Position numbers and translations under genes: made by a program. Positions 14,672 through 38,740 of a stretch of 38,740 nt of DNA are shown here, in pieces (the stretch's first letter is position 1; every line of letters starts with the position of its first letter). The notes beneath the pieces are model-generated. The model saw nothing but the letters and a program-made list of their open reading frames with translations, did no database searches and had not been told where the DNA came from. Source of the stretch: Clostridia bacterium (GTDB lineage Bacteria > Bacillota > Clostridia > Oscillospirales > CAG-272); assembly GCA_017462485.1 (NCBI GenBank), contig JAFTRA010000033.1:1-38740 (forward strand), read 5' to 3'.

Positions 14672-15673
14672 ATGCAAACTATCGTACGTCCCGAAAGTTT
14701 TTGCCGTATTACCACGGAAGCGCTCGCTAAAAGCTTTATCGACGAGCAGGTAAAAATTATCAGAGAGCAGGTTGGTAACAAAAAGGTTCTTCTCGCCCTT
14801 TCAGGCGGAGTTGACTCCTCGGTAGTTGCCGCTCTTCTTGTCAAAGCAATCGGAAAGCAGCTCGTATGCGTTCACGTTAACCACGGTCTTATGAGAAAGG
14901 ACGAATCTGAAAACGTTGTTGAAATTTTCAGAAATCAGATGGACGCAAACCTCATTTACGTTGATGCAACCGACCGTTTCTTGAATCTTCTCAAAGACGT
15001 ATCCGACCCCGAAACAAAGAGAAAAATCATAGGCAAGGAATTTATAAACGTTTTTGCCGACGAAGCAAGAAAGCTTGAGGGAGTTTCTTATCTCGCCCAG
15101 GGAACAATATATCCCGACATTCTTGAGAGCCAGAAGCAAGCCGAAGGCAAAAAGGCTGTTAAATCGCACCACAACGTAGGCGGTCTTCCCGAGGACCTCC
15201 AATTTGAGCTTGTTGAGCCCCTTGCTCTCCTCTTCAAAGACGAGGTAAGAGTTGTCGGCGAAGCGCTCGGACTTCCTCACGCTATGGTTTACCGTCAGCC
15301 CTTCCCCGGCCCAGGTCTTGGCGTGCGCTGCCTTGGCGCTATCACGAAGGATAGACTTGAAGCTCTCCGCGAGGCTGACGCAATTCTCCGTGATGAGTTT
15401 GATAAAAACGGTCTTGCCGAAAAGGTATGGCAGTTCTTCGTAATTGTTCCCGACGTCAAGAGTGTTGGCGTTAAGGACGAGAGCCGCTATGAAGGCTGGC
15501 CCGCTATTATCCGCGCCGTTAACACCACCGACGCTATGAGCGCAACTATCGAAGAAATCCCCTACGCTGTTCTTCATAAGATAACCGCACGTATCACAAG
15601 CGAAGTCGTAGGCATCAATAGAGTTCTTTATGACCTCACACCGAAGCCTACGGGAACGATTGAATGGGAATAA
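14672..15673 (+). CDS. guaA: GMP synthase, ATP pyrophosphatase subunit without glutaminase domain
   Basis: It converts XMP to GMP by adenylation and amination. The P-loop of the ATP-pyrophosphatase domain, LALSGGVDSSV, is near residue 44, followed by VHVNHGLMRKDE, the YLAQGTIYPDILES segment and the C-terminal dimerisation domain ending TPKPTGTIEWE. At 333 aa it lacks the roughly 190-residue class I glutamine amidotransferase domain that most bacterial GuaA proteins carry at the N-terminus. A few ordinary residues replace it, and the AGGAG site confirms the start. This is the two-subunit arrangement known from archaea. No glutaminase subunit is present in the window. The stop codon lies inside a 19-bp inverted repeat. 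Confidence 0.95.
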   Translation: MQTIVRPESFCRITTEALAKSFIDEQVKIIREQVGNKKVLLALSGGVDSSVVAALLVKAIGKQLVCVHVNHGLMRKDESENVVEIFRNQMDANLIYVDATDRFLNLLKDVSDPETKRKIIGKEFINVFADEARKLEGVSYLAQGTIYPDILESQKQAEGKKAVKSHHNVGGLPEDLQFELVEPLALLFKDEVRVVGEALGLPHAMVYRQPFPGPGLGVRCLGAITKDRLEALREADAILRDEFDKNGLAEKVWQFFVIVPDVKSVGVKDESRYEGWPAIIRAVNTTDAMSATIEEIPYAVLHKITARITSEVVGINRVLYDLTPKPTGTIEWE

Positions 15674-15698
15674 GCCTGTGGCTTATTCCCATTCAATC
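15658..15698 (+). terminator. Perfect 19-bp inverted repeat at the guaA end
   Basis: GATTGAATGGGAATAAGCC (15658-15676) pairs perfectly with its complement at 15680-15698 over a 3-base loop. The left arm contains the last codons and stop of guaA. There is no T tract after it, so termination is plausible but not standard. The hairpin repeat begins at the next base. Confidence 0.6.
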
Positions 15699-15864
15699 AA
15701 CTATGATTGCCTAACAGCAAGTTATGATACGCTCTGCGTAGTTATAGTTAGCTTCGCCAAGTTATGAGCGACTTCGTCGCGTTGAAGTTAGATAAGCAAT
15801 CATATCATAACGAGTACATAGTACTCCCATAACGTTTGGCAACGCCAAACTCATAACTCTAAAC
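15699..15864. repeat. Hairpin-module repeat element, copy A
   Basis: A 166-base element starting AACTATGATTGCC and ending CTCATAACTCTAAAC, also present at 38584-38740. It is a chain of short hairpins joined by GTTATGA linkers in the left part and TCATAAC linkers in the right part: TACGC-TCT-GCGTA, TTAGC-TTC-GCCAA, GCGAC-TTC-GTCGC, GAGTAC-ATA-GTACTC, GTTTGGC-AAC-GCCAAAC. An enclosing stem pairs TATGATTGC with GCAATCATA (to 15804). Another module, GTTATGA-TTGGC-TTT-GCCAA, lies at 15901-15920 just before the four-helix-bundle gene. The stem sequences differ from copy B while base pairing is kept. Confidence 0.85.
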
Positions 15865-15943
15865 TCATAACTTTTTCTCTTATCTGCAAAACAAGTATCA
15901 GTTATGATTGGCTTTGCCAAATTTGAAGTTACAGGAGCTTATT

Positions 15944-16297
15944 ATGCCAGACAGCATATTAAGAAACAAATCCAAGGAATTTGCCAAAAGTATTGTGTTT
16001 CTTTGCCGAGGATTAAAACAAAACGGGGTTGAAAGTGCTTTAATCAACCAACTTCTGCGTTGCGGAACTTCTGTCGGTGCAAACGTTCACGAAGCACAAT
16101 ATGCACAAGGAACAAAGGATTTTATTTCTAAGTTTGAAATAGCACTCAAGGAGTGCAATGAAAGCGAGTATTGGCTTGAACTATTGCATGAAACAGATAG
16201 TAGTATAAGTGAAATGGAGTTCAAAAAATTTCAAAAAGAATGTATAGAACTACGCCGAATGCTCGTTTCGTCGGTTACCACATTAAAGAACAAATAA
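15944..16297 (+). CDS. Four-helix-bundle protein (S23/intervening-sequence family)
   Basis: It resembles the small four-helix-bundle family first found in 23S rRNA intervening sequences and related in fold to the Avd accessory protein of diversity-generating retroelements. The family pattern is visible: SKEFAKSIVFLCRGLK, LINQLLRCGTSVGANVHEAQYAQ, DFISKFEIALKECNESEYWLELL and a final helix with LRRMLVSSV. 117 aa, family-typical, starting at ATG 15944 with AGGAG six bases upstream. These proteins are basic and thought to bind nucleic acid; the molecular role of free-standing copies is unknown. It lies 79 bases downstream of the hairpin repeat with no reverse transcriptase in the window. Confidence 0.88.
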   Translation: MPDSILRNKSKEFAKSIVFLCRGLKQNGVESALINQLLRCGTSVGANVHEAQYAQGTKDFISKFEIALKECNESEYWLELLHETDSSISEMEFKKFQKECIELRRMLVSSVTTLKNK

Positions 16298-16326
16298 GGC
16301 TTACAAGTGGATTGGAAGCCTTATTT
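16292..16326 (+). terminator. Terminator of the four-helix-bundle gene
   Basis: An 11-bp stem (AAATAAGGCTT at 16292-16302, AAGCCTTATTT at 16316-16326) that includes the stop codon. An overlapping alternative pairs AAGTGG (16305-16310) with CCACTT and is followed by a T tract near 16337. Confidence 0.7.
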
Positions 16327-16341
16327 CAAGCCACTTTTTGC

Positions 16342-38548: not shown

Positions 38549-38585
38549 TTTAGCGTGATACTCTTAACGGAGTATTCACGCTAAA
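38549..38585 (+). terminator. Hairpin at the end of the BlaI-M56 operon
   Basis: TTTAGCGTGATACTC (38549-38563) pairs with GAGTATTCACGCTAAA (38570-38585) over 15 bp with one bulged T. It has no T tract and runs directly into the hairpin repeat, just as the guaA hairpin does. Confidence 0.6.
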
Positions 38586-38740
38586 CTATGATTGCCCTTA
38601 CGGGCAAGTTATGAGTTGTGAGATACTTCGTATCGTTATGATTGGCTTCGCCAAGTTATAGGTTAGATGGGCAATCATATCATAACGCTTGCTATGCAAG
38701 CTCATAACAGTGAGCGAAAGCGAACCTCATAACTCTAAAC
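38584..38740. repeat. Hairpin-module repeat element, copy B
   Basis: It starts AACTATGATTGCC and reaches CTCATAACTCTAAAC exactly at the window end. Modules: TTGCCC-TTAC-GGGCAA, GATAC-TTC-GTATC, TTGGC-TTC-GCCAA, GCTTGC-TAT-GCAAGC and an imperfect GTGAGC-GAAA-GCGAAC, joined by GTTATGA on the left and TCATAAC on the right. The enclosing stem is ATGATTGCCC with GGGCAATCAT. Copy A has the same order with different stem sequences. In copy A the four-helix-bundle gene follows about 80 bases further on; the equivalent here is outside the window. Confidence 0.85.

Follow-up and report, generated by a model that had tools for sequence, protein, structure and literature searches.

Inverted hairpin-chain repeats of a Clostridia genome probably belong to a large family of small mobile DNA elements in gut bacteria

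The window, that is, the whole stretch of 38,740 nucleotides of Clostridia DNA analysed here, carries two copies of a repeat that, as far as can be judged from sequence comparison, is part of a large family of small DNA elements of gut bacteria, which are probably able to jump. In each element, two arrays of a 7-nt word stand in inverted orientation to one another, and hairpins space the words. In our opinion these are probably mobile elements tied to four-helix-bundle (4HB) proteins of the S23p type, which would insert at the 3′ ends of transcripts, partly by fold-back pairing. Members of the family are often met at gene ends, and many of them pair there with the last nucleotides of the gene. 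The ends of the genes guaA and rlmD are occupied repeatedly, by elements of different word types, and part of these elements carry inverted arms that match the host. A common feature, an array of 7-nt words beside a gene, connects the orphan candidate RNA Gut-1, S23p and the intervening sequences (IVS) of rRNA.

Results

Two-armed hairpin chains in the window

Both copies reported in the earlier note, copy A at 15699–15864 and copy B at 38584–38740, were found again at these positions (Table 1). They are two-armed hairpin chains: the word GTTATGA spaces the hairpins of the left arm, and its reverse complement TCATAAC spaces those of the right arm. The window copies show the stems that the note had quoted, and in them the word turns from GTTATGA to TCATAAC. 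The long-range pair ATGATTGC/GCAATCAT, which it had taken for an outer stem, is present too; the strand closing this stem also has a local partner (TTGCCC-TTAC-GGGCAA in copy B). The stems of the two copies had been said to differ in a compensated way at the same positions. The compensation holds, and the strict one-to-one matching does not, since copy A has an extra hairpin, GCGACTTCGTCGC at 15768–15780. The folding energy of the region 15699–15880 around copy A was better than that of 200 out of 200 dinucleotide shuffles (z = −4.0), and copy B gave the same result with z = −4.7.

Copy A is a chain together with a 4HB gene, and this complete unit lies directly 3′ of the guaA stop codon. The 4HB gene starts 79 bp downstream of the chain, and the guaA hairpin H0 lies directly upstream; the earlier note recorded neither. 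Copy B is broken off where the contig ends. The final 141 bases of the window are identical to the opening 141 of contig C24, which belongs to the same assembly, and the full frame around this copy measures about 360 bp. A PF05635 profile search gave no match on C24, where copy B continues. The window's own genome, G000 below, comprises 2.23 Mb in 49 contigs and is 98% complete.

Table 1. Positions of the features found in the window.
Feature	Position	Strand	Basis
Host gene, putatively guaA by similarity; ends ..TIEWE stop	14672..15673	+	ORF list; homologous 3′ end in relatives
H0, 19-bp perfect hairpin GATTGAATGGGAATAAGCC-TGT-GGCTTATTCCCATTCAATC	15658..15698	+	
618-bp insert, by comparison with the empty guaA site in relative G010	15674..16291	+	alignment
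Hairpin chain copy A, word type A	15699..15864	+	sequence, folding, 11-copy alignment
Hairpins of the copy A chain	15728-15740, 15748-15760, 15768-15780, 15812-15826, 15834-15850	+	
More words, one hairpin TTGGC-TTT-GCCAA after GTTATGA; stretch up to the 4HB start codon	15865..15943	+	
4HB gene, S23p / 23S rRNA IVP family, 117 aa	15944..16297	+	profile and PDB matches
guaA terminator region, today 3′ of the element	16298..16340	+	aligns to sequence directly after guaA in G010
5′ arm of interrupted terminator hairpin, GGAACAGAC; 3′ arm GTCTGTTCCTTTTTT on contig C24	38540..38548	+	
Left-end hairpin of outer frame E1, TTAGCGTGAT..ATTCACGCTAA	38550..38584	+	
Hairpin chain copy B, word type A, within E1, without 4HB gene, runs on into C24	38584..38740	+	

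The earlier note had suggested a search for further copies, and a query with the full copy matched 22 of 40 genomes, including G000. For the covariation analysis, 11 aligned type-A copies of similar length were selected from a larger set; their kinship survives shuffling. Pairing cells amounted to 97.9% versus 89.8% in the shuffles. Both sides had changed in 10 of 27 pairs, which was equalled by none of 500 shuffles, and the covariation score was 0.270 versus 0.115 in shuffled and at most 0.071 in slid alignments. A test for further pair types on the same 11 copies was not significant (69/500 shuffles). The compensated change first noticed between two copies is therefore borne out as strong covariation across 11 of them, and the opinion that this is not a plain palindromic repeat is supported, as is the two-armed layout. 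The type-A chain starts with A(A/G)(C/T)TATGAT, followed by the first hairpin and then by GTTATGA words with hairpins between them. The middle strand GGGCAATCATA is able to pair with the chain start. In the right arm, the hairpins lie between TCATAAC words, and the chain ends with TCTAAAC. Locus L121 (1774–1995, minus strand) has about nine hairpins of a single polarity (GTTATGA only) and is without the inverted arm; perhaps it is an expanded left arm.

Chains at the ends of guaA and rlmD

An empty site of the kind that the earlier note had in mind was found at guaA of the relative G010. Positions 15602–15673 of the window align to positions 1–72 of this site with 69% identity, and positions 16292–16340 (49 bases) align to positions 75–122 with 82% identity. 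The alignment on both flanks indicates that 618 bp stand in place of two bases, with the guaA terminator on the right. Judged by this comparison, copy A is a 618-bp insertion between the guaA stop codon and the guaA terminator. The 5′ arm of H0 consists of the last guaA codons and the stop codon, and its 3′ arm is an inverted copy of them at the tip of the element. The palindrome score is 16 at the guaA end of the window versus 4–6 at 14 empty guaA ends.

The guaA ends compared were 30 loci from 54 genomes with a match. By our reading, 16 of the 30 carry a chain: type A accounts for nine, including a degenerate one, and a second type, whose words are GATGAA/TTCATC, for seven. An inverted copy of the guaA codons (score of at least 8) was present at 6/9 ends with type A, 0/7 with the second type and 0/14 empty ones. 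Since it is missing at 10 of the 16 occupied ends, fold-back copying is not general. In the six genomes with such a copy, the arm fits the genome's own codons with a score of 13.7 versus 11.5 when swapped (4/720 permutations).

The input to the H0 scan was 21 type-A loci, of which eight had been selected for lying at guaA, plus the window, which dropped out owing to a chance TATGA upstream. Among the 19 type-A chains located, 12 have an H0, and 11 of these hairpins include the stop codon of a frame at least 80 aa long, six of them at a guaA gene. In 7/12 the hairpin is at least 10 bp long with the stop codon inside. As a control, a stop codon within a perfect hairpin was common for at least 6 bp (95/421 long frames) and uncommon for at least 10 bp (10/421). 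When the 4HB-linked chains with H0 were considered, the host stop codon lay inside in 8/41. At L158 and L159, a short guaA-like tail (TGGGAATAA or GAATGGGAATGA) stands at the left end of the unit, upstream of the 4HB gene. By eye, the sequence before this tail is not guaA-like, and the tail is possibly a trace of departure from guaA.

At rlmD, 28 of the 40 ends offered were parsed: 24/30 from relatives (17 occupied, 7 empty) and 4/10 from MAG contigs, which had been chosen for carrying chains and are counted among the 21 occupied ends. Four GTGAAGT elements were assigned as occupied by hand. The palindrome scores were 6–18 for the 21 of 28 ends that are occupied, by several word types, versus 3–5 for the seven empty ones. 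It turned out that the rlmD arms match the codons of their own genome (11.76 versus 7.05 swapped, 0/10000). An almost identical element is present in three hosts, at loci L276, L297 and L301. In its arm, the inner 8 nt are matched to the host (CAAACGAC or CACACGAC); the outer 8 nt, GACTCGAC, are constant, with a full fit only to the host of L276. A constant outer part and an inner part that follows the host suggest that the former is borne by the element and the latter may have been copied from the host. The arm of L277 fits its own host poorly (score 7), as is expected of a recently arrived arm. At rlmD of G000, the sequence right of the element picks up the empty G008 site again, with 91% identity across 247 bases. 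Some 100 bases of that site are gone, so this insertion was not a simple one.

The outer frame of copy B

Copy B consists of two nested elements, a chain inside a frame that we call E1. In G000 this frame encloses at least five type-A chains (L013, L014, L016, L017 and copy B). On the left it ends in the hairpin TTAGCGTG..CACGCTAA, and on the right in a module finishing near CTAAGAACATCACCC; by eye, the two ends resemble imperfect inverted repeats. Other E1 copies hold different chains, with the words GTGAAGTT, TCGATAT, GCGATAT and AATATCAC. Where both ends are present (18 copies), the flanking sequences complement each other, with a mean score of 13.0 versus 7.0 for swapped flanks. The score was at least 10 in 15/18, and the three weakest copies had 6, 7 and 8. 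A run of four T is located to the right of E1 in 16/18 copies and to the left in 2/18. From the complementary flanks and the T runs on the right, we read E1 as sitting in the loops of terminators, mostly in one orientation.

The four-helix-bundle partner

The 4HB protein of copy A matches PF05635 (2.4e-23), TIGR02436 (9.1e-29) and PDB 2rld_A (3e-25). G000 has six PF05635 matches, one of which is truncated. The profile is present in 16/17 genus genomes, and PF05635 / S23p was found in 35/199 sampled genomes of the phylum. We know of no catalytic site in the 4HB fold.

The set of 113 4HB loci comprised 80 named contigs and 33 loci from G000 and relatives. The named contigs hold the closest 4HB genes (best 80 of 584); most are MAGs with Clostridia, Oscillospiraceae or Ruminococcus in the title, and many come from ruminant guts. 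On these 80 contigs, hairpin coverage is 0.18–0.19 within 300 bp upstream of the 4HB match, 0.04–0.07 beyond 400 bp upstream and 0.03–0.10 downstream. There were 3.37 hairpins per 400 bp versus 0.92 in the controls, which are mostly coding (73/80 4HB loci). A listed 7-nt word was found directly upstream of the 4HB gene in 68/100 full-length regions, downstream in 7/100 and further up in 3/92; the list was drawn from the same loci as those tested, and 40/113 loci are unlabelled. Without the list, any 7-mer occurring at least four times was found in 76/100 regions upstream, 15/100 downstream and 15/92 further up. In the 4HB-linked chains, the stems vary while the word stays conserved. On the tree of the 4HB proteins (72/113 loci, the labelled ones), the word changes 16 times, with a minimum of 13 and a shuffled mean of 53.2, and 0/200 shuffles were as low; the tree rests on few alignment columns, many of its forks are left open, and near-copies favour agreement. 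Thus the word appears to track the 4HB protein tree, and linkage alone could yield the same agreement.

At L026 (1100–2000, contig C39 of G000), a 4HB unit adjoins, by eye, an apparent tRNA-Leu gene. A partial second copy of the 5′ part of this tRNA-Leu-like gene lies upstream; this is possibly another copied target.

Mispairs and loops

In chains upstream of 4HB genes, G.U exceeds A.C mispairs by 34 to 13, and in other copies the ratio is 8 to 9. The controls gave 17 to 13 for terminator-like hairpins and 140 to 112 for background hairpins, and a looser hairpin finder with word types A–F gave 12 to 20. The evidence for an RNA reading from a G.U excess is therefore mixed and of low power. The loops were more regular in the two arms of 4HB-linked chains. 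In the left arm, T..C loops number 67 and G..A loops 12 of 149; in the right arm, G..A loops number 45 and T..C loops 12 of 108, with a background of about 10% each. These mirrored loops show a directional unit inverted between the arms, which fits a symmetry at the DNA level. C-GNA-G loops form very stable DNA mini-hairpins. Both a structured RNA and a folded single-stranded DNA are kept as possibilities.

Relation to Gut-1

The earlier note knew of no named family with this layout. This has to be corrected: Rfam Gut-1 (RF01706) matches sister chains built on other words. Like the chains, Gut-1 consists of hairpins joined by a repeated linker, and the left arm of the sister chains matches all of its 77 positions. 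Scores of at least 50 bits were obtained for the GTGAAGT chains L072, L073, L232 and L282 and the GTGATAT chain L168, and scores below 50 bits for the GTTATAT chain L172 and for L130, which is of the second guaA type. In the window, there was no Gut-1 match at the gathering cut-off, nor in its region 15600–16000 at E up to 5, and the type-A loci L013, L006, L017, L128, L149 and L157 gave none at E up to 0.05. With strict filters, Gut-1 occurs in at least 46/59 relatives and exceeds the cut-off in at least 39/59 genomes, with 0 to at least 49 matches per genome and a top score of 89 bits. E. coli gave signal under the cut-off only. Four of the five Gut-1 loci inspected show a whole chain, and the fifth view missed the place. 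Chain L332 follows a tRNA-Leu gene, and chain L333 follows a tmRNA gene. At 29/30 Gut-1 loci, no 4HB frame was found nearby (same strand, flanks examined). Seven Gut-1 matches that overlap or adjoin follow one another on a single strand at G006:C68:8828-9292, where left arms have expanded in tandem. Weinberg et al. (2010, PMC2864571) considered Gut-1 most probably a non-coding RNA and reported it from environmental sequences only. Gut-1 covers one arm, and the accessible text of that paper mentions no protein, second arm or mobility.

Discussion

We consider it unlikely that the chain is a non-autonomous element of the MITE or REPIN type, served by a transposase located elsewhere (Y1/RAYT or IS1182 type) and carrying the 4HB gene as a passenger. 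REPINs with RAYT (TnpA-REP) are likewise short directional palindromic units in many copies with a partner gene (PMC3116915 and PMC8266576, in the excerpts available). Window-type chains linked to 4HB genes, with the word flip and the mirrored loops, are also inverted directional palindromic units, which recalls REPINs. However, the partner of the chain is a 4HB protein and not a Y1 transposase, and each arm holds several words and hairpins. The position of E1 in terminator stem-loops is much like the targeting of inverted repeats by IS1272, an element of the IS1182 type that, according to the available part of PMC5678879, carries a transposase gene and takes the place of the inverted repeat, whereas E1 keeps the terminator arms on both sides. 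The transposase families covered by our searches were Y1 and PF13751. Y1 (PF01797) had no match in G000 and was present in just 3/17 genus genomes, although draft genomes can miss genes. PF13751 was found in 0/25 genus genomes, and an IS1182-type transposase was rejected as the mover of E1. The agreement between the word and the 4HB tree speaks against the passenger role too.

Other known systems were also compared. The reverse transcriptase profile PF00078 had no match in G000 and was found in 2/17 genus genomes. The Avd protein of diversity-generating retroelements presumably belongs to the same fold family as the 4HB proteins, and G000 differs from these retroelements in having no reverse transcriptase match. 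A weak PF05635 match has a reverse transcriptase for a neighbour at G015:C18:5972-7526, an arrangement also known from such retroelements. Group IIC introns, attC sites and CRISPR were dropped on their layout, together with the reverse transcriptase and Rfam searches.

Could the chains have evolved by template switching alone? In this case, they would be short inverted repeats of the ordinary kind, with arms made alike by DNA polymerase switching strands, and neither a mobile system nor selection would be needed. Homogenisation of arms and inversion of spacers are reported in the accessible part of PMC8604942. One H0 loop is AAA in one relative and TTT in the other (L122, L138), and copies without a 4HB gene have no excess of G.U over A.C with either hairpin finder. 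Compensated change is not proof of selection by itself, because template switching can also produce it. Template switching is thus a likely contributor. As the whole explanation it is quite unlikely, since it leaves the conserved words, the polarity flip, the association with 4HB genes and the empty site unexplained. In addition, the wrong-way loops are near background (8% and 11% versus about 10%), so spacer inversion appears to be infrequent.

It is very unlikely that the chain is a structured non-coding RNA like the described Gut-1, whose spread is incidental: the Gut-1 scores of sister chains, the G.U excess upstream of 4HB genes and the chains after tRNA-Leu and tmRNA genes would fit, but the copy number varies widely between genomes, guaA has an empty site, and Gut-1 matches occur on both strands of one element (L092; L168).

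In the explanation that we prefer, the chains are mobile elements with S23p-type partners, a protein family known from rRNA. In the IVS of Coxiella 23S rRNA, tandem heptameric repeats lie just before the S23p ORF, and the ends are complementary (PMC4990558, as far as its text is accessible). Copy A encodes a PF05635 protein of the same family, and copy B is without it. Unlike the IVS, copy A lies after guaA and copy B between terminator arms, neither of them in an rRNA helix, and the chains of the window have hairpins between the words and both arms upstream of the gene. In the wider phylum, the 4HB gene was without a hairpin chain in 28 of 29 loci (the 29th yielded no frame), with 0.50 versus 1.04 hairpins per 400 bp. 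Instead, these loci have tandem 7-nt words (identity at lag 7 of 0.40 versus 0.25–0.29 at other lags and 0.25 in the control) and inverted words 3′ of the gene (16.7 versus 8.6 swapped, on average). Four of them lie within 23S rRNA and two within RNase P RNA. From the 7-nt arrays of the phylum and the heptameric repeats of Coxiella, we read the hairpin chain as an S23p word array to which hairpins were probably added. At L321 and L323 (1229–2003, minus strand), the 4HB gene with its 7-nt arrays lies inside RNase P RNA, and the RF00010 match spans the insert. No paper that joins S23p genes, hairpin chains and gene ends was found in the openly licensed literature (titles and abstract openings).

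We propose that the cognate 4HB protein, as an oligomer, binds single-stranded nucleic acid at the repeated words and keeps the chain together as a compact body. The element would settle where a transcribed gene ends or at a terminator. Where its 5′ tip pairs with the gene end, insertion or later repair would copy the host strand back on itself. H0 would close the junction, and the gene would retain a usable end. Fold-back copying or template switching may keep the arms complementary as the sequence drifts. The element encodes no strand-joining enzyme, and host replication or repair functions would have to join the strands. Chains without the gene, such as most Gut-1 loci, are assumed to be served by 4HB proteins in trans. 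A more far-reaching version is tentative and rather doubtful: mobility would require no dedicated enzyme, the 4HB oligomer would read the 7-nt word, the 5′ tip would guide homing to the last codons of guaA or rlmD, one fold-back reaction would provide both recognition and junction repair, and the S23p protein of rRNA IVS would be the same machine.

S23p has been described as a protein family without known function, and the word array offers a direct binding test. When a repeat arm copies the end of a host gene, compensated stems may arise in this way and may be mistaken for RNA function in searches based on covariation.

We also compared more distant records. In G035, which belongs to another family of the same order, a unit of chain and 4HB gene likewise follows guaA. 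Its 4HB protein is 88% identical to that of the window, and the C-terminal part of guaA is 65% identical; we count this contrast as probable horizontal spread. Relatives of the 4HB protein occur in 25 plasmid records, all with less than 60% identity. An unannotated phage record from human faeces (MT835815.1:4618-4959, minus strand) holds a 4HB protein 66% identical to that of the window.
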